Both the position numbers and the translations under genes were made by a program. DNA of 46,702 nt from Ectothiorhodospiraceae bacterium WFHF3C12 (GTDB lineage Bacteria > Pseudomonadota > Gammaproteobacteria > Nitrococcales > Nitrococcaceae). Every line of letters starts with the position of its first letter. Position 1 is the stretch's first letter. The notes under the pieces are model-generated. The model had not been told where the DNA came from. It worked only from the letters and a program-made list of their open reading frames with translations, and searched no databases. The stretch covers positions 1-46,702 of the forward strand of contig JACDUA010000033.1 of NCBI GenBank assembly GCA_013519935.1. The letters run 5' to 3'. Shown piece by piece: positions 35,950-44,378 of this stretch.

Positions 35950-36552
35950 TCAGTAACCGGCGTTGGCCGTGTGGCAGCAGATGCGGCCGTCCTCGTCGAA
36001 GCGGACATCGCAGTTGGCGATCAGCCGTTCGCGCAGTTGCCTGCGGGCACGGAACAGCCGGGATTTCGCCGCATTCAGGGTTATGCCGCTTGCCTTGGCG
36101 TAGTCGCTCTGGCGGATGCCGTCGAGATCACAGGCCTGGATGACGTCGCGCTCGCGTTCCTGCATCAGGCGCAGGTTGCGGGCCAGGCAATGACTCAGGG
36201 CATCGACTGGGTGGTCGTCCGGCTCCGGAGAAGGCAGATCTTCCGGCAGCGATAGACCGGGCTTCTCACGGCGTTGTCTGTCCACCAGGGCATTGCGCGC
36301 GACCCGGAACAGCCAGGCTCTCGGGTTGTCCAGCTCGCAGAAGCCCTCGCCGGCCCGTAGTGCCTTCAGGAATACGTCCTGCAGCAGATCCTCCGCGGCA
36401 TCCCGGTGCCGCGTCCGGCTTACGAGGAATCCCAGCAGCTCGTCCTCGTAGGCGCGCCAGGCGCCGAGAACGCAGTCGAAGGCCGCCGTGTCATCCGGTT
36501 CTTGACCGGCCTCAACCGCGTCGGCGCGATTTTCGCGCAACCTTTCAGCCAT
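35950..36552 (-). CDS. ECF-type RNA polymerase sigma factor with cysteine-rich tail (SigZ-like)
   Basis: 200 residues. Region 2 lies at about 28-95 (AYEDELLGFLVSRTRHRDAAEDLLQDVFLKAL, DNPRAWLFRVARNALVDRQRR) and region 4 at about 118-178 (LMQERERDVIQACDLDGIRQSDYAKASGITLNAAKSRLFRARRQLRERL). A short tail carries C181, C192, C193 and H194 (CDVRFDEDGRICCHTANAGY). No anti-sigma gene is adjacent, so the tail may sense redox or metal directly. It is divergent from a permease plus CxxC thioredoxin pair. The start at 36552 has GGAGAGAAG upstream at a slightly long distance. Confidence 0.9.
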   Translation of the reverse strand: MAERLRENRADAVEAGQEPDDTAAFDCVLGAWRAYEDELLGFLVSRTRHRDAAEDLLQDVFLKALRAGEGFCELDNPRAWLFRVARNALVDRQRREKPGLSLPEDLPSPEPDDHPVDALSHCLARNLRLMQERERDVIQACDLDGIRQSDYAKASGITLNAAKSRLFRARRQLRERLIANCDVRFDEDGRICCHTANAGY

Positions 36553-36574
36553 CGCTGCGTCTTCTCTCCAGAGG

Positions 36575-36605
36575 ACCTCCCGGGGGAGGTGTATCGAAAC
36601 CGATA
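36575..36605. promoter_or_regulatory. dyads in the sigma/permease divergent promoter
   Basis: ACCTCCC-GG-GGGAGGT (36575-36590) has perfect 7-bp arms, and TATCG-AAAC-CGATA (36592-36605) has 5-bp arms. They lie in the 69-bp gap between the two divergent genes and are candidate operators or promoter parts. Confidence 0.4.
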
Positions 36606-36621
36606 GGGCGCGAGGTAACGA

Positions 36622-37623
36622 ATGTTTGAGATATTCACCCGATTGGCCGACTGGCTGGCCTATGGAGTGCTGGGGCTCCAGGCTTCGAGCCGGTTCGGGG
36701 CCGCGGTGCATTTCTTCATCGAGGATACCACCAAGATATTCGCCCTGCTGGTGGTCATGATCTACCTGATCGCGCTGGCCCGCGCGTCGCTGGACCTGGA
36801 GCGAACGCGGAACTTCCTGCAGGGGCGCCATCGGCTGGCGGGCTATTTTCTGGGCTCGGGTTTCGGCGCAGTGACGCCGTTCTGTTCCTGTTCCAGCATT
36901 CCGCTGTTCCTCGGGTTTACGAGTGCCGGCATCCCAGTGGGGATCACCATGGCCTTCCTGCTGACTTCGCCGGTGATCAACGAGGTGGCGGTGGTGATGC
37001 TCTGGGGGCTGTTGGGCTGGAAGTTCACGGTGGCCTACGTGGCCGTGGGCGTCGGTGTGGGCGTGCTCGGCGGTCTGCTGCTCGATGCGATGCGCGCCGA
37101 GCGCTGGCTGCAGCCGTTCGCCGCCAAGGCCTACGAGGCGGCAACGGTGGCCGATGGGGGGGTTGAGGTGTCCGTGCGCAAGCCGCTGACGCCCCGTGAG
37201 CGCCACCGGTTCGCGGTGGACGAGTTGAAGGAGATCGTCGGGCGGATCTGGAAATGGGTGTTCATCGGAGTGGCCCTGGGCGCGGGCCTGCACGGCTTTG
37301 TGCCGGAGGGCTGGTTTGCCGCGAACCTGGGGGCCGGGCAATGGTGGACGGTCCCGGCGGCGGTGGTCGCGGGGCTGCCGCTGTACTCCAACGCGACCGG
37401 CGTCATCCCGGTCCTGGAAAGCCTGCTCGGCAAGGGATTGCCCTTGGGCACCACTCTGGCGTTCTGCCTGAGCACGGTCGCGGCAAGCTTCCCGGAGTTC
37501 GTCCTGCTCAAGCAGGTCATGCAGTGGCGCCTGCTGGCTGCGTTGTTCGTCATTCTGCTGGTGAACTTCATGCTGGTGGGGTGGATATTCAACGGCATAG
37601 CGCCCTGGTTGGCCATCGGCTGA
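36622..37623 (+). CDS. permease of the DUF318/ArsP-like family
   Basis: 333 residues with about eight hydrophobic segments. The signature TPFCSCSSIPLF has C88 and C90. SAGIPVGITMAFLLTSPVINE and AGLPLYSNATGVIPVLESLLGKGLPLGTTLAFCLSTVAASFPEFVLLKQVM form the second conserved half. ArsP-type members export trivalent organoarsenicals, and others are linked to unknown metals or sulfur species. GAGGT precedes the ATG. It is followed by a small thioredoxin in the same operon, which favours a thiol-reactive substrate. Confidence 0.9.
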   Translation: MFEIFTRLADWLAYGVLGLQASSRFGAAVHFFIEDTTKIFALLVVMIYLIALARASLDLERTRNFLQGRHRLAGYFLGSGFGAVTPFCSCSSIPLFLGFTSAGIPVGITMAFLLTSPVINEVAVVMLWGLLGWKFTVAYVAVGVGVGVLGGLLLDAMRAERWLQPFAAKAYEAATVADGGVEVSVRKPLTPRERHRFAVDELKEIVGRIWKWVFIGVALGAGLHGFVPEGWFAANLGAGQWWTVPAAVVAGLPLYSNATGVIPVLESLLGKGLPLGTTLAFCLSTVAASFPEFVLLKQVMQWRLLAALFVILLVNFMLVGWIFNGIAPWLAIG

Positions 37624-37671
37624 GCCGGGTTCGCGAATAGCCCATCGAGAATCTTGTGAGAGGTAGCCAAG

Positions 37672-37911
37672 ATGAAGGTTGAAGTTTTGGGAAGCGGATG
37701 CAAAAAGTGCGTTGCCACCGCGGAGCGCATCACCGAAGTGGGGCAGGCGCTCAACGCCGAAGTAACCGTGGAAAAGGTCACCGACGCGGAGAAAATCATG
37801 CGCTATCAGGTAATGTCCACGCCCGGGGTGGCCATCGACGGCAAGCTTGTCCACAGCGGCTCCGTCCCTAGCCGTGAGGATATCGAGGGGTGGCTGAAGG
37901 GCGCGGCCTGA
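37672..37911 (+). CDS. small thioredoxin-like CxxC protein
   Basis: 79 residues, a minimal thioredoxin fold: KVEVLGSGCKKCVAT with C10 and C13, and the cis-proline in MSTPGVAIDGKLVHSGSVPS. It matches the redox-active disulfide protein 2 group. It is commonly found beside DUF318 permeases, as here, 48 nt downstream. It probably reduces or delivers the permease substrate. Confidence 0.93.
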   Translation: MKVEVLGSGCKKCVATAERITEVGQALNAEVTVEKVTDAEKIMRYQVMSTPGVAIDGKLVHSGSVPSREDIEGWLKGAA

Positions 37912-39906: not shown

Positions 39907-40128
39907 TTACGCGCGCCGCCGGGAGGGTGGTCCGGACCTCACGGGGTCGTGCGTCCGACGCACATCGGTAATGGCCGGTTCATGGTCGCCGTAGAACCGG
40001 CGGTACTGCGCCATTGCCCGTTCGGCCAGCTCGTACTGGCCGGACTGCGCCAGCTCTCTGATGTACCCGCGCCACTGGGCGGGCGGCATGATCGGCAGGG
40101 CGCGCGTGTCGACGATGTTGATGGCCAT
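39907..40128 (-). CDS. unknown 73-aa protein under a putative ECF promoter
   Basis: MAINIVDTRALPIMPPAQWRGYI-type N-terminus, a helical RELAQSGQYELAERAMAQYRRFYGDH middle and a basic Arg/Pro tail. The ATG at 40128 follows AAGGGAG. The 62-bp gap before it holds the same bipartite motif as the DUF4331 leader, starting at the stop codon of the anti-sigma gene. Function unknown. Confidence 0.72.
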   Translation of the reverse strand: MAINIVDTRALPIMPPAQWRGYIRELAQSGQYELAERAMAQYRRFYGDHEPAITDVRRTHDPVRSGPPSRRRA

Positions 40129-40161: not shown

Positions 40162-40194
40162 GGGAATACGTCGGCCATGGCCATCTGGATTCAG
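40162..40194 (-). promoter_or_regulatory. putative ECF-sigma promoter upstream of the 73-aa gene
   Basis: Minus strand: CTGAATCCAG (40194-40185), 11 bp and CGACGTATTCCC (40173-40162). It is identical apart from two bases, with the same spacing, to 43304-43336. The -10-like part lies about 38 nt from the ATG. The first bases overlap the anti-sigma stop codon. Confidence 0.65.
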
Positions 40195-40880
40195 CCGCTG
40201 CGCGGCGTAACGAAACGCGCCTGGTAGACCACCGACCCCGTGGGCTGACCGGTCGGGGAGCCGCCGGGCGGTTCCACGGAGACGGCCAGGGCGGCGCCGC
40301 CCGCCCGGGCCGCATCCACGGGCAGGGCGACGCTGCGGCTGCCCTGCTCGGGAAGAAGACCCAGAGAACGCGGCTTCTCGCCCGACGCGGGGGGCATGAG
40401 CCACAGCTCCAGGGCCTTGCCCTCGGGCGCCGCCACCGTGCCGACGGCGCTTATGTTCAGCTCGCCGGTCTCCGGGTCGGCCGTAACCGTCCACAGCGGC
40501 GTGGTGGCGTCTTCGGCAATGATGGCGACGTAGCTCTCGGGCGGGGCGGTGGGTACCGAGACGACCAGGAAGACGGCGAGGACGGCAGCGGCTGCCGTGG
40601 CCGTCGCGGTCGCCGCCGGCCATCCGAGCCAGTCCATGAGCCCGCGGCGCTCAGGCTGGATGCGCGCACGGATGCGGCGCCAGACACGCCGTGGAGGTTG
40701 GCGCTCGGGCAGGCCCGCTGCGACGGCGTTGAGCTGACGCTCCCAGCCGTGGACGGCCTCGCACAGGGTCGGGAACTCCAGCATCAGCCGCTCGAAGCGC
40801 CGCCGGGCGCGGCCGTGCAGTGTGCCCACCACATATTCCGCGGCCAGCCGGTCCTGCAGCTCCAGGTCGCGGTATCTCAT
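40191..40880 (-). CDS. anti-sigma factor of the RskA type
   Basis: 229 residues. The ATG at 40880 overlaps the sigma stop (ATGA), so the pair is translationally coupled. The N-terminal anti-sigma domain (RLAAEYVVGTLHGRARRRFERLMLEFPTLCEAVHGWERQLNAVA), one TM helix at about 86-109 and a periplasmic RskA domain ending in SVVYQARFVTP (LELWLMPPASGEKPRSLGLL is typical) are present. It holds the sigma factor at the membrane until a signal, perhaps proteolysis, frees it. The N-terminus lacks the zinc-type HxxxCxxC. Confidence 0.92.
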   Translation of the reverse strand: MRYRDLELQDRLAAEYVVGTLHGRARRRFERLMLEFPTLCEAVHGWERQLNAVAAGLPERQPPRRVWRRIRARIQPERRGLMDWLGWPAATATATAAAAVLAVFLVVSVPTAPPESYVAIIAEDATTPLWTVTADPETGELNISAVGTVAAPEGKALELWLMPPASGEKPRSLGLLPEQGSRSVALPVDAARAGGAALAVSVEPPGGSPTGQPTGSVVYQARFVTPRSG

Positions 40881-41446
40881 CCCTGCAGGCATTGTTTCAG
40901 GCCCTCCAGTCCGCGGCGGATCCAGCTCTTGACGGTGCCCAGTGGGCGTTTCAGTCGGCTGCTGAGCTCGTGGTGGGTGAGTCCCTGGAAGAAGGCCAGG
41001 GTGATGGTCTGACGCTGGGTATCGCTGAGCTCGTCCAGGCAGCGCTGGAGCGCGGCGGCGTCGTCCTGGGCGAGGAACTGTTCCATGGGCCCGGCGTCGT
41101 CATCGGTTATCCGGCCCATGTCCTCGTCGGATAAAGGGGCTTCCGGCCGCCGGCCCCGGGCGCGGCGTACGTCGATGGCCAGGTACCGGGCGATGCTCAC
41201 CAGCCAGGTGAGCACGTTGCCCCGGGACGCGTTGTAGTCGCCGGCCTTGTGCCAGACCTTCACGTAGGCTTCCTGCAGCGCTTCCTCGGCCCACTCGCGG
41301 CGGACGAGCATGCGCAGGCATACCGCGAACAGGGTGGGGGAGGTCAGCTCGTACAATCGGGCGAACGCCTGCTGGTCGCCGCGTGCGGTCAGGTGCAGCA
41401 GGCGGACCAGCTCCTCGTTGCGCTCCTGGACGCGTTCCGGGTCCAT
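40877..41446 (-). CDS. ECF-type sigma factor (SigK-like)
   Basis: 189 residues from the ATG at 41446 (GGAGAAAGCC upstream); an ATG four codons earlier is possible. Region 2: FARLYELTSPTLFAVCLRMLVRREWAEEALQEAYVKVWHKA and WLVSIARYLAIDVRR. Region 4: CLDELSDTQRQTITLAFFQGLTHHELSSRLKRPLGTVKSWIRRGLEGLKQCL. It is paired with an RskA-type anti-sigma. Two nearby leaders share a motif suitable for this sigma factor; its own 118-bp leader does not have it, so it may rely on readthrough past the hairpin at 41530-41557. Confidence 0.94.
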   Translation of the reverse strand: MDPERVQERNEELVRLLHLTARGDQQAFARLYELTSPTLFAVCLRMLVRREWAEEALQEAYVKVWHKAGDYNASRGNVLTWLVSIARYLAIDVRRARGRRPEAPLSDEDMGRITDDDAGPMEQFLAQDDAAALQRCLDELSDTQRQTITLAFFQGLTHHELSSRLKRPLGTVKSWIRRGLEGLKQCLQG

Positions 41447-41529
41447 GGCTTTCTCCATCGGGTCTCAGCCGGGGCGCCCGTGATCCCGCGGCGCCCGGCG
41501 CCACGGTATCACGCCTGAATTCGAGTTGA

Positions 41530-41557
41530 GCACGGCGGCGCGGATGCGCCGCCGTGC
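41530..41557 (-). terminator. hairpin between the small lipoprotein and the sigma gene
   Basis: GCACGGCGGCGC-GGAT-GCGCCGCCGTGC, a perfect 12-bp stem just past the lipoprotein stop. No T-run follows on the minus strand, so it may stabilise the upstream mRNA or only attenuate readthrough into the sigma gene. Confidence 0.55.
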
Positions 41558-41564
41558 CTTCGGC

Positions 41565-41795
41565 CTACTGCAGTACATCGTCGTAGGCGTTGGGGTTGTC
41601 GCGGTCCGTGAACCGCAGGTCCCGGTCGTTGACCGCGACCGGCTCGCCGTCGACATCCCCGCCCAGCACCGACTTGATGAACAGTGTGAAGTCGGTGCCG
41701 GTTTCGGCGCTGCCGCCGTCGTTGTCGCCACCGCAACCCGCCACGGCCGCGGCGAGCAGTGCAGCGGCGAAGAGCTTGAGGTTCCGCTGTGTCAT
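41565..41795 (-). CDS. small unknown lipoprotein
   Basis: 76 residues. The signal LKLFAAALLAAAVAGC has a lipobox VAGC with the lipid cysteine at C21, followed by an acidic Gly/Asp-rich linker (GGDNDGGSAETG). The mature stretch FTLFIKSVLGGDVDGEPVAVNDRDLRFTDRDNPNAYDDVL is short and acidic. It starts 10 nt after the DUF4331 stop, so the two are co-translated and probably work together at the envelope. Family not recognised. Confidence 0.85.
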   Translation of the reverse strand: MTQRNLKLFAAALLAAAVAGCGGDNDGGSAETGTDFTLFIKSVLGGDVDGEPVAVNDRDLRFTDRDNPNAYDDVLQ

Positions 41796-41805
41796 GTCGG
41801 CCTCC

Positions 41806-43260
41806 TTACGGGTTCGGGCTGCCGGGCAGCGGGGTGTTCAGGTACGGGAACGCGGTGGCGAAGTCCGTGGCGTCGACGATGGCGCCGTCGGTGAAAGGGG
41901 CGTCCCTGTTGGGGGCGTCCGGCAGCAGGGCGCCCATGGCCACGCGCAGGCTGATGTCGACCACGTCGTCACCCGGCCGGCGGCCGTTGGGGAAGCCGGC
42001 GTTGTCGCCGGCCAGGGCGCCGAGACTGTTCTGCGAGGCGGCGGCCACCGGACTGACCGAGGTGTTGAGCCGCAGCATCTCGGCCGGGGTGACGTCCGCC
42101 GGCTGGTTGACGCCGTCCAGGCCGGTGAGAAACGCCGACACCAGGTCCTGGCGCGGGAACGTGTTGGGCGCCTCGGCCCCGGCGCTGGCGAAGAGGATCT
42201 CCAGCAGCTCCGGCAGGGTGGGGTTGGTGACGTACCGGGCGAACTGAGCGTCGTCCATGGGCTCGCTGGCGTTGAAGCGGTCCTTGTCCTTGCGGCCGAT
42301 GACCACCTCGTTGACCAGGGGCATGCCCAGCCGTGAGACCTGGGTCCAGGCGCCGCCGTTGACCGCGGCATCGCGTCCGCCGTTGGCGGCGTCCGGAGCG
42401 GGGTTGAGCACCCGGGCCTGGGGCAGGCTGGCGGTGGTCCACACGCCGATGACCGGCTCGCCGGAGGCGGTAAGGCACTCGACCGGCGCCTCGATGGCGA
42501 GGGAAGTTACGTTGGTGTCGGCGATGACGTTGCTCTCGCCGTCGCGCGGGCCCAGGGGATCGGTGTTCACCAGGTCGAAGACTTCGCCCAGATTCACGGC
42601 GAAGCTCTCCTGGCGCTGGCCGACGAACAGCCGTCCGGCGCCGCTGCAACCCGGAATGTTGACCGGGTAAACGTGGTTGCCGGCATAGGCCGCGTAGTCG
42701 CTGATGGACTTCTGGCCGATGTTGTCCACCGGGCGGATGAACGTATCGTCTCCGGTGTCCATGTTGAGCACGGCGTCAGTGGTGCCGGTGCGGCGGTCCC
42801 CGCGCACGACGTCCAGGGTGTAGGTCTGCCGTGCGGTGACGTTACCGACATCCCAGCTATTGGGACCGATCCCGCCGATATTCTTGAGCGGCACGGACAC
42901 CATCTCGCCGCCGGCGTCCACCTGCAGGTCGTTGGTGACCGTCTCGAAGTCGAACTGGAAGGTAAGGTCCTCGACGGCGTCGCCGTCGTTGTCGACGTGG
43001 ATCTCGTATACCGCGTCGTCCTCCAGCGGGTAGTAGTTCGGTCCGCCGTACGGGCCCTGCAGGGGCTGGTAGTTGGCGATGAGGGTGACGTAACCGCTGC
43101 GCCCGCTCTCGTAGCTGCGGAAGGCGTACAGGTCGGTGGCGTCCACCTTGGGCAGGGTTGAGATGAACGGCGCCTCGCGGTGACTGGCGCTCTGGGCACT
43201 GCCCGCGCCGAGCGCGAGCGCGAGTGCGGTTGCTGTGGTGACTAGCCTTGATGATTCCAT
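41806..43260 (-). CDS. secreted DUF4331-family protein
   Basis: 484 residues from the ATG at 43260 (GGAGGATTCGTC upstream). The signal peptide ends near GSAQSA. The mature start SHREAPFISTLPKVDATDLYAFRSYESG is the family hallmark. Later regions are YPLEDDAVYEIHVDNDGDAVEDLTFQF, an Asp-rich (DNDGD) calcium-like loop, and the C-terminal PLVNEVVIGRKDKDRFNASEPMDDAQF and GRRPGDDVVDISLRV. Function of DUF4331 is unknown. It heads the operon with the small lipoprotein and has the ECF-type motif in its leader. Confidence 0.92.
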   Translation of the reverse strand: MESSRLVTTATALALALGAGSAQSASHREAPFISTLPKVDATDLYAFRSYESGRSGYVTLIANYQPLQGPYGGPNYYPLEDDAVYEIHVDNDGDAVEDLTFQFDFETVTNDLQVDAGGEMVSVPLKNIGGIGPNSWDVGNVTARQTYTLDVVRGDRRTGTTDAVLNMDTGDDTFIRPVDNIGQKSISDYAAYAGNHVYPVNIPGCSGAGRLFVGQRQESFAVNLGEVFDLVNTDPLGPRDGESNVIADTNVTSLAIEAPVECLTASGEPVIGVWTTASLPQARVLNPAPDAANGGRDAAVNGGAWTQVSRLGMPLVNEVVIGRKDKDRFNASEPMDDAQFARYVTNPTLPELLEILFASAGAEAPNTFPRQDLVSAFLTGLDGVNQPADVTPAEMLRLNTSVSPVAAASQNSLGALAGDNAGFPNGRRPGDDVVDISLRVAMGALLPDAPNRDAPFTDGAIVDATDFATAFPYLNTPLPGSPNP

Positions 43261-43303
43261 GACGAATCCTCCGGTTTGTTCCGCGAACGGCGGTGATGCG
43301 GTA

Positions 43304-43336
43304 GGGGATACGTCGTCCGGCACGTTCTGGATGCAG
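43304..43336 (-). promoter_or_regulatory. putative ECF-sigma promoter of the DUF4331 operon
   Basis: Minus strand: CTGCATCCAG (43336-43327), 11 bp and CGACGTATCCCC (43315-43304), about 45 nt before the DUF4331 ATG. Shared with 40162-40194. ATCC as a -35 and CGTAT-like -10 are in the style of group IV sigma promoters. Confidence 0.65.
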
Positions 43337-43430: not shown

Positions 43431-44378
43431 TCATTCCGTGAAGGTCACGGGCTCCCGCGGGCTCCGGTCAACCGAGAAGGAGAAGAGGTCCGGCCGCGCG
43501 TAATGGCCGCAGACGTCGAGTGATCGACGCGCGGCTTTCGCGGCGTCGTTGTCGATCTCCGCATACAGGATGCCTTTCTCGCGATACAGGGGGCCCGCCG
43601 CTATGGCTCCCATGGGCTTGACGACGACGGCATTGCCGTCGTTTATCCACTCATCGGGTTCAAAGAGCGCATCCCGCTGGGGGAAATTGTCCGGCAGGTC
43701 ATTGCCCTGCAGCGCCGTGGCCGTGCCGATGACCCAGCAGCCAGCTTCCTTGGCGATATGCCGCATGGTCGCCAGCCAGCTCTCGCTGGCGTCCCAGGTG
43801 GGGGCCACGAAGACGTCGATGTCCTGAGCGTAGAGGGCGTAGCGGGCGAGCGGCATGTACGCCTCCCAGCATATGAGGGCGCCGAGACGGCCGGCTGGCG
43901 TATCGACCACGCGCAGTCCGGACGCGTCACCCATGCCCCACACCATGCGCTCGGGATTGGTCGGCATCATCTTGCGGTGGCGGTTGAGGAGCGCGCCGTC
44001 GGGACCGATGACCACGACGGTGTTGTACAGTGTCGAGCCGCTGAACCGGCTGTCCAGCTCGTTGATGCCCAGCACGATCGTTATGCCGCGCTCCGATGCG
44101 GCATCCTGCACCGGCTGCAGATGCCCCGCGGAGAGGTCTACCGCGCTATTTCGCAGGCGTGTGTGTATTTCCCCGGATAGCGCCATGTCGCCCCCGGGGC
44201 GAAGCCGCCAGATCCACGTGGGATAACCGCCCACGTACGCCTCGGGAAAGACGATGAGAGAAGCGCCCCGGTCAGCGGCCTCTTCGATGCGGGTGAGGAC
44301 GATATCGAGGGTTCCCGGCCGGTCGAGCAATACCGGCGGTACCTGCACGACTGCAACCTGGGTAGCCATGACATCCAT
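43431..44378 (-). CDS. nitrilase-superfamily hydrolase
   Basis: 315 residues from the first ATG; an ATG three codons later is equally likely. The catalytic set is complete: E46 in FPEAYVGGYP, K136 in HRKMMPTNPERMVWG and C170 in CWEAYMPLARYALY. These motifs (YVGGYPxW, HRKxxPTxxER, CWExYMPLxR) are those of true branch-1 nitrilases (aliphatic nitrilase or cyanide hydratase side) that turn nitriles into acids and ammonia. Cytosolic. It stands alone, 170 bp upstream of the DUF4331 operon in the same direction. Confidence 0.92.
   Translation of the reverse strand: MDVMATQVAVVQVPPVLLDRPGTLDIVLTRIEEAADRGASLIVFPEAYVGGYPTWIWRLRPGGDMALSGEIHTRLRNSAVDLSAGHLQPVQDAASERGITIVLGINELDSRFSGSTLYNTVVVIGPDGALLNRHRKMMPTNPERMVWGMGDASGLRVVDTPAGRLGALICWEAYMPLARYALYAQDIDVFVAPTWDASESWLATMRHIAKEAGCWVIGTATALQGNDLPDNFPQRDALFEPDEWINDGNAVVVKPMGAIAAGPLYREKGILYAEIDNDAAKAARRSLDVCGHYARPDLFSFSVDRSPREPVTFTE

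Follow-up and report, generated by a model that had tools for sequence, protein, structure and literature searches.

A probable promoter motif shared by a DUF4331 operon and a small orphan gene points to an ECF sigma factor regulon in an Ectothiorhodospiraceae bacterium

Extracytoplasmic function (ECF) sigma factors that govern a small regulon are a well-known kind of system. One of the closest described examples is the SigK–RskA pair of Mycobacterium tuberculosis, a sigma factor and its anti-sigma factor with secreted targets, of which MPT70 and MPT83 are fasciclin proteins; the mycobacterial SigK promoter has another −10 element than the one described here. We analysed a 46,702-nt stretch of DNA from Ectothiorhodospiraceae bacterium WFHF3C12 (contig JACDUA010000033.1, positions 1 to 46,702, hereafter the window) in which two closely similar bipartite sites flank the genes of an ECF sigma factor and an RskA-type anti-sigma factor. 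One site precedes an operon beginning with a gene for a DUF4331 protein, whilst the other precedes a gene for a protein of 73 amino acids. What looks new is the content of the putative regulon, centred on DUF4331.

The second group for comparison is that of the RpoE–ChrR regulons (Rhodobacter sphaeroides type, Shewanella RpoE2 and PSPTO_1043 of Pseudomonas syringae). Extracts of PMC5507510 and PMC4336711 give the promoters of this type as TGATCC-N16-CGTA, some with mapped starts, and the latter extract includes a periplasmic peroxidase among the targets of Shewanella RpoE2. Set against these extracts, the present sites have the same 16-bp spacing, the same −10 CGTA and ATCC at the same position, whereas their −35 element is TG[C/A]ATCC (TGCATCC and TGAATCC in the window), one base longer than TGATCC; the motif thus resembles a sister promoter code with equal −10 and spacing. 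ChrR is a cupin anti-sigma factor, whereas the anti-sigma factor of the window matches RskA_C only. The two lineages are close, since an extract of PMC7074977 notes the RpoE/ChrR pair of Rhodobacter capsulatus as resembling SigK/RskA; a Yersinia SigK–RskA pair is the subject of PMC7509140. A family of the ChrR-cupin type, identified from the checked member L071, lies near DUF4331 in eight loci (L071, L072, L079, L086, L106, L109, L115 and L162, with L071 and L115 being the same locus), and a single sigma lineage may therefore have exchanged one type of anti-sigma partner for another.

A profile of 15 relatives of the window's sigma factor, searched against the PDB, placed SigK of M. tuberculosis first (4nqw, E 8.6e-49), making it the closest solved structure, and RpoE of R. 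sphaeroides second (2q1z, 4e-38). With 153.5 bits the window's sigma factor falls below the 226-bit cut-off of the NCBIfam SigK model NF007228, and it does a little better against two other curated sigma models, again without reaching their cut-offs; we therefore describe it as SigK-like and refrain from classing it as SigK. Lastly, sigma-F of Caulobacter is presented in an extract of PMC3511200 as controlling a small ECF regulon of DUF2282/DUF692 operons under metal stress, and as not induced by agents generating reactive oxygen. Its motif GTAACC-N16-CGAA and its anti-sigma factor NrsF, as given there, are both unlike those found here, and no DUF4331 appears among the listed rows of its target table (PMC3511200). 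The present motif does precede DUF2282 genes in two other genomes, a likeness to the sigma-F and bufferin (Gig) operons as far as the extracts describe them; bufferins reportedly promote growth under copper stress (extract of PMC12452194). A full-text search of an open-licence library found no paper naming DUF4331; ECF reclassification and SigK regulon tables lie outside that search and may already list this sigma group beside DUF4331.

Both sites lie on the minus strand and match exactly as the first-pass annotation had written them. Site 1 (43304-43336), the putative ECF-type promoter of the DUF4331 operon, reads CTGCATCCAG-N11-CGACGTATCCCC; its −35 element TGCATCC (43329-43335) and −10 element CGTAT (43308-43312) are separated by 16 bp, and the −10 lies 47 nt before the DUF4331 ATG. 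Site 2 (40162-40194), the putative ECF-type promoter of the 73-amino-acid gene, reads CTGAATCCAG-N11-CGACGTATTCCC with TGAATCC (40187-40193), the same 16-bp spacing and CGTAT (40166-40170), the −10 being 37 nt from the ATG. The stop codon of the anti-sigma gene (TGA, 40191-40193) falls within the −35 of site 2. A GGAG-type ribosome site is present at both the DUF4331 and the 73-amino-acid gene. The agreement at 20 of 22 fixed bases is borne out, and the 11-bp spacers, described as unrelated, agree at 4 of 11 places. The sites also flank the sigma (40877-41458) and anti-sigma (40191-40892) genes, both on the minus strand, as had been claimed.

The combined pattern of both sites has two matches in the window and none in 100 dinucleotide-preserving shuffles. 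A slightly trimmed pattern, TGNATCCAG-N11-CGACGTATNCC, matches only these two places in the 4.6-Mb genome (backward control 0), and a looser core with a spacer of 15-17 has three matches genome-wide. A still looser form of the motif has nine genome matches against three for the backward control, so that few random matches came out of the genome scan that the first-pass annotation had suggested. Four of those nine share TG[C/A]ATCCAG-N14-CGTAT, namely the two in the cluster, C81:6338 and C136:76663. The observation holds and lies far outside what chance would give, a chance match being rejected by the shuffles, the genome counts and the leaders of orthologs alike.

Conservation before orthologous genes was examined in 100 DUF4331 loci. 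Of these, 80 are the best species-named ones among at least 591 that profile-scanning of species genomes brought up, and 20 are further loci. The 80 range from Marinobacter, Saccharospirillum and Litorivivens to Massilia, Duganella, Janthinobacterium and Undibacterium. Among the 100 loci there are two duplicates, and 98 DUF4331 leaders, the window's included, were scored. Expectation maximisation on 95 leaders, one of them the window's, with randomly picked stretches of randomly picked leaders as starting points, recovered TG[C/A]ATCC-N16-CGTAT as the conserved core with an occupancy of 0.77. Its third position is C (0.61) or A (0.37), the two variants seen in the window sites. The first place after ATCC is A or G only, and there is little information in the outer C, the AG after ATCC or the GA before CGTAT, where the motif model ends. 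Moreover, in the 80 leaders NGNATCC-Nx-CGTA occurs 36 times at x=16 against 3 times at all other spacings (10-23) together.

The position weight matrix (PWM) of this motif, applied with a threshold score of at least 12, detected sites in 72 of the 98 DUF4331 leaders, counting that of the window, in 16 of 49 leaders of related sigma genes and in 8 of 920 control leaders, these being other mechanically called open reading frames (ORFs) of at least 150 amino acids in the same loci, which gauge the rarity of a site elsewhere. Column-permuted matrices (8 trials) found 0 or 1 sites in DUF4331 leaders against 71 of 98 loci for the true matrix. In the window, site 1 scores 22.4 and site 2 scores 22.0, whilst the best score outside the cluster in the 46.7 kb is 11.1. 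Conservation of the motif in orthologous leaders is thus well supported, the motif having also been rediscovered de novo. The leader of L073 carries TGATCC-N16-CGTAT, the RpoE–ChrR form, in place of TG[C/A]ATCC, about 60 nt before the DUF4331 start; a TGATC[C/T] form in the absence of a TG[C/A]ATC form occurs in 1 of 100 leaders.

The link to the sigma factor comes first from co-occurrence, which like the sites and their conservation is read directly from sequence. Of 274 Gammaproteobacteria, 24 have a relative of the DUF4331 protein at E<=1e-30, and this genome is one of the 24. A related sigma factor (E<=1e-25) accompanies DUF4331 in 23 of these 24 genomes against 28 of the 250 others, and was found in 30 of 31 selected DUF4331 genomes. 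The sigma-less exception is Litorivivens (L088), whose DUF4331 leader lacks a site (best score 0). Gene neighbourhoods were recounted by tblastn, since ORF clustering loses some sigma genes: a site is present in 44 of the 50 leaders whose locus holds both sigma and anti-sigma genes, in 4 of 8 where the sigma gene alone was detected, in 23 of 39 where neither was, and in the window itself. In relatives with a divergent sigma gene, this gene often has a copy of the motif directed towards it, clearly so in L115, L104, L106 and L136, and sigma start codons lie 226 nt (L084) and 94 nt (L259) after a site. Autoregulation of this sort is usual for ECF sigma factors. The strict motif TG[C/A]ATCC[A/G]-N15-CGTAT[A/C] has 30 matches in 19 of the 31 selected genomes against 2 for the backward control, 12 of the 30 lying before DUF4331 and 2 before a sigma gene (read by eye). 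A similar pattern gave 73 matches against 18 for the backward control in a random sample of Gammaproteobacteria; at least one strict-pattern match occurred in 13 of 24 DUF4331 genomes and in 10 of 28 with the sigma factor only. Taken together, these data support the interpretation of both sites as targets of the adjacent sigma factor, with the co-occurrence, the 44 of 50 against 23 of 39 sites and the 16 of 49 sigma leaders as its evidence. We consider it highly probable that both sites serve as promoters for the ECF sigma factor whose gene (40877-41458) lies between them.

Several observations weigh against this. The Fisher probability of the co-occurrence (2.4e-18) ignores shared ancestry and counts this genome as one of the 23. 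The matrix was trained on the same leaders, and the leader counts are thus partly circular; the de novo motif, the spacer count and the co-occurrence test stand outside that circularity. No site at threshold was found in 26 of 98 DUF4331 leaders, 6 of them beside an RskA-type pair by ORF clustering, and only 16 of 49 sigma leaders carry one. The 23 of 39 leaders that have a site with no nearby sigma gene detected indicate that the sigma factor is not always local. Beyond the DUF4331 (71) and divergent (26) leaders, the matrix finds 65 sites in the 98 loci, a number within the permuted-matrix totals of 20 to 94, so that as a set these sites are at background and most of them are probably chance. 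The strict pattern is present in 38 of 222 genomes that have neither gene, and because of this single matches outside these loci are mostly untrustworthy when their position in a leader is not known. In this genome the stretches around a fasciclin gene and two HupE/UreJ genes hold no site scoring at least 11. Finally, a search of the order's 53 other genomes with the 73-amino-acid protein brought no match below E 0.005.

The rival that survives best accepts both sites as ECF promoters and has them read mainly by another ECF sigma factor, for example of the RpoE–ChrR type, with the adjacent pair regulating something else or cross-talking. The motif is one −35 base away from the RpoE–ChrR motif as given in the extracts cited above, L073 carries TGATCC itself, eight loci have a protein of the ChrR-cupin family, and 39 of 98 DUF4331 loci lack such a sigma gene by tblastn within the stretch examined, the 23 with a site among them. 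Yet the next-best sigma factors of this genome match the window's sigma factor far more weakly (2.4e-10 or worse against a self match of 2.6e-128), the related sigma factor accompanies DUF4331 in 23 of 24 genomes, and leaders of the sigma gene itself carry a site in 16 of 49 cases. We regard this rival as improbable. Less credible still is that the sites are bound as operators by a repressor or activator and do not act as promoters. Two blocks at a fixed spacing could also suit such a regulator; however, the blocks are neither direct nor inverted repeats of each other, the spacing of 16 and CGTA are features of RpoE–ChrR-type promoters as far as the extracts describe them, the −10 blocks lie 37 and 47 nt upstream of start codons, and no sigma-70-like promoter was found in the cluster. 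That the similarity is a recent duplication or a functionless repeat element is extremely unlikely and the repeat element is rejected, for although the sites agree even at outer bases that other genomes do not conserve, their spacers are unrelated and the core recurs before orthologs from Marinobacter to Duganella.

The preferred reading, recognition of both sites by the sigma factor between them, suggests the following mechanism for the cluster. In the resting cell the RskA-type membrane anti-sigma factor (40191-40892) would hold the sigma factor, and an envelope signal would free it. RNA polymerase with this sigma factor would then start transcription at TG[C/A]ATCC-N16-CGTAT, with site 1 driving the genes of the DUF4331 protein and a small lipoprotein and site 2 driving the 73-amino-acid gene. 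Transcription from site 1 probably continues into the sigma and anti-sigma genes, which would give positive feedback. A simple scan found no minus-strand terminator between the lipoprotein and sigma genes (two terminators in total, both on the plus strand, with 2.5 expected) and no sigma-70-like promoter in the cluster (0.5 expected), and because of these two results the DUF4331/lipoprotein transcript likely reads on. The sites on C81 and C136 would add an AhpC/TSA peroxiredoxin and one further target. DUF4331 thus probably belongs to a small envelope-stress response.

All genes of the cluster lie on the minus strand. The DUF4331 protein (41806-43260) has 484 amino acids and a signal-peptide-like N-terminus, and covers the Pfam model PF14224 at full length (2-421 of 421, E 2.5e-145). 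The small lipoprotein (41565-41795) has 76 amino acids, a lipobox-like AVAGC and coding-like codon usage; it has no Pfam match, and tblastn found homologs in 20 of the 80 species-named and 3 of the 20 other DUF4331 loci. The sigma factor (193 amino acids, SigK/RpoE(ChrR)-like) has Sigma70_r2 (PF04542) and Sigma70_r4_2 (PF08281) above cut-off and matches the sigma70-ECF model TIGR02937 at 91.8 bits (cut-off 42.9). Its gene overlaps by 16 nt with that of the anti-sigma factor, which has 233 amino acids and an RskA_C domain (PF10099, E 7.1e-22, 78.5 bits, cut-off 29.4). The 73-amino-acid protein (39907-40128) has no Pfam match and no tblastn homolog at 1e-3 in the 100 DUF4331 loci. Its frame looks like coding sequence, its codon-usage score being equalled by 17 of 895 wrong-frame segments whilst 22 of 179 true-coding segments score no higher. 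This protein is an orphan, and therefore the evidence for its membership is the site in this genome. The regulon proposed in the first-pass annotation, of DUF4331, lipoprotein and 73-amino-acid protein, is accordingly supported and widened, with the third member tied to it through that one site. A megablast search for near copies of the cluster on plasmids gave no match.

An extension of the regulon outside the window, to at least one peroxiredoxin gene, is supported by the C81 site. This site precedes a gene for a 263-amino-acid AhpC/TSA peroxiredoxin (PF00578, E 4.3e-20), the ATG of which follows the putative −10 at a distance of 62 nt. The fourth strong copy of the motif, at C136:76663-76690 (matches L211 and L243), reads TGCATCCAG...CGTAT and has no clear target; some 280 nt away, counted from where the site starts, a secreted-looking protein of 98 amino acids begins. 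Elsewhere, among the matches listed, genes following a site are found in single or few instances, some of which may be chance. They include the sigma gene itself (L084, L223, L224, L259), fasciclin-type genes (L119 by eye, L141/L227 by Pfam), TonB-receptor-like genes in Duganella and others (L234 by Pfam), a catalase-like gene (L241, 26.9 bits, cut-off 25), an FAD amine oxidase-like gene (L232) and DUF2282 genes in two genomes (L242, L267). The DUF2282 gene of L242 is followed by a gene for an MbnB_TglH_ChrH enzyme (L246), as in bufferin operons, and the fasciclin-type genes, following the motif in two relatives, recall the fasciclin targets of SigK. Also found after a site are DUF3455 genes (L219, L221) and genes for a cytochrome c (L217), a FecR-domain protein (L226), a cytochrome P460 (L261), a rhodanese (L263) and a DUF3034 protein (L258). 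Five matches (L256, L257, L260, L268, L269) have no clear target gene. Taken together, the wider targets suggest a response to envelope oxidative or metal (copper) stress, although the lack of a site at this genome's own fasciclin and HupE/UreJ genes speaks against that theme.

Some matches were set aside by eye. Those of L228, L229 and L239 (Marinobacter) lie inside a pyridine-nucleotide oxidoreductase-like coding sequence, an instance of a strict match that is probably no promoter, and that of L220 lies in a long frame with no fitting start and was taken as coding sequence. A literature search with the motif strings returned no regulon paper among the matches listed; one match to TGCATCC with many mentions of sigma factors was rejected, the string being a crystallography oligonucleotide.

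The conserved promoter would tie DUF4331, a secreted family in many genera, to a sigma/anti-sigma switch, and in single instances links it to peroxiredoxin, catalase-like, DUF2282 bufferin-type and fasciclin genes. Because of this tie, and of the hints from these genes, the signal inducing DUF4331 may be sought with a simple reporter. The protein itself offers a further hint. In 68 aligned DUF4331 proteins Ser26 and His27 are invariant, and in 64 of the 68 the residues immediately upstream of [S/A]SH form an AxA-like signal-peptidase pattern, which the other 4 also show when read by eye; in the window's protein ASHREAP begins the mature protein after the presumed AQS cleavage. Since the presumed cleavage falls directly before it, the mature N-terminus would be [S/A]-S-His. 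A free N-terminal pattern of this kind binds Cu(II) and Ni(II), and a metal role of DUF4331 may be taken as a lead.

Structural comparison was also attempted. The second of two models of the DUF4331 protein reached a pLDDT (predicted local distance difference test) of 88.8, the first 53.1. The model had no Foldseek match at E<=0.001 in the PDB, and a profile search of PDB sequences with DUF4331 found no relative at E<=1. The best VIA-align result (Z 5.9, root mean square deviation 3.1, 115 residues) belongs to a set of weak resemblances, mostly to antibody domains, that were not used.

In many relatives DUF4331 is followed by two further ORF families, one TPR-like (62 of 101 loci, two of them duplicates; the checked member has TPR repeats) and one of the HupE_UreJ_2 family (69 of 101 loci on the same count, identified from the checked member), at a median of +1.7 kb and +2.9 kb from the DUF4331 start (L068 and many others). 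The HupE_UreJ_2 member that was read contains an H-X5-DH stretch. Neither gene adjoins DUF4331 in the window, where the lipoprotein and sigma genes stand instead, and this genome has two HupE_UreJ_2 genes elsewhere. A bolder reading, which we hold to be rather doubtful, would place DUF4331, as core effector, in a widespread regulon for copper/oxidative stress of the envelope: it would be secreted with the mature Cu/Ni pattern NH2-[S/A]-S-His and made on demand, depending on the species together with bufferin-type copper peptides or with peroxiredoxin or catalase-like enzymes, to which many relatives would add the TPR protein and the HupE/UreJ-type metal permease-like protein. If true, this would provide both a function and an inducing signal for a family of unknown function.

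Two neighbouring regions of the window may be mentioned. Upstream of site 1 lies a gene for a carbon-nitrogen hydrolase (43431-44378, minus strand), whose best NCBIfam match, the Nit6803 nitrilase, is under the cut-off. On the other side of the cluster, a frame of 634 amino acids (35950-37854, minus strand) ends at about 35950-36600 in what appears by eye to be a further ECF sigma factor, beside which a permease-like gene (36622-37623) and a thioredoxin-like gene (37672-37911) were likewise recognised by eye.

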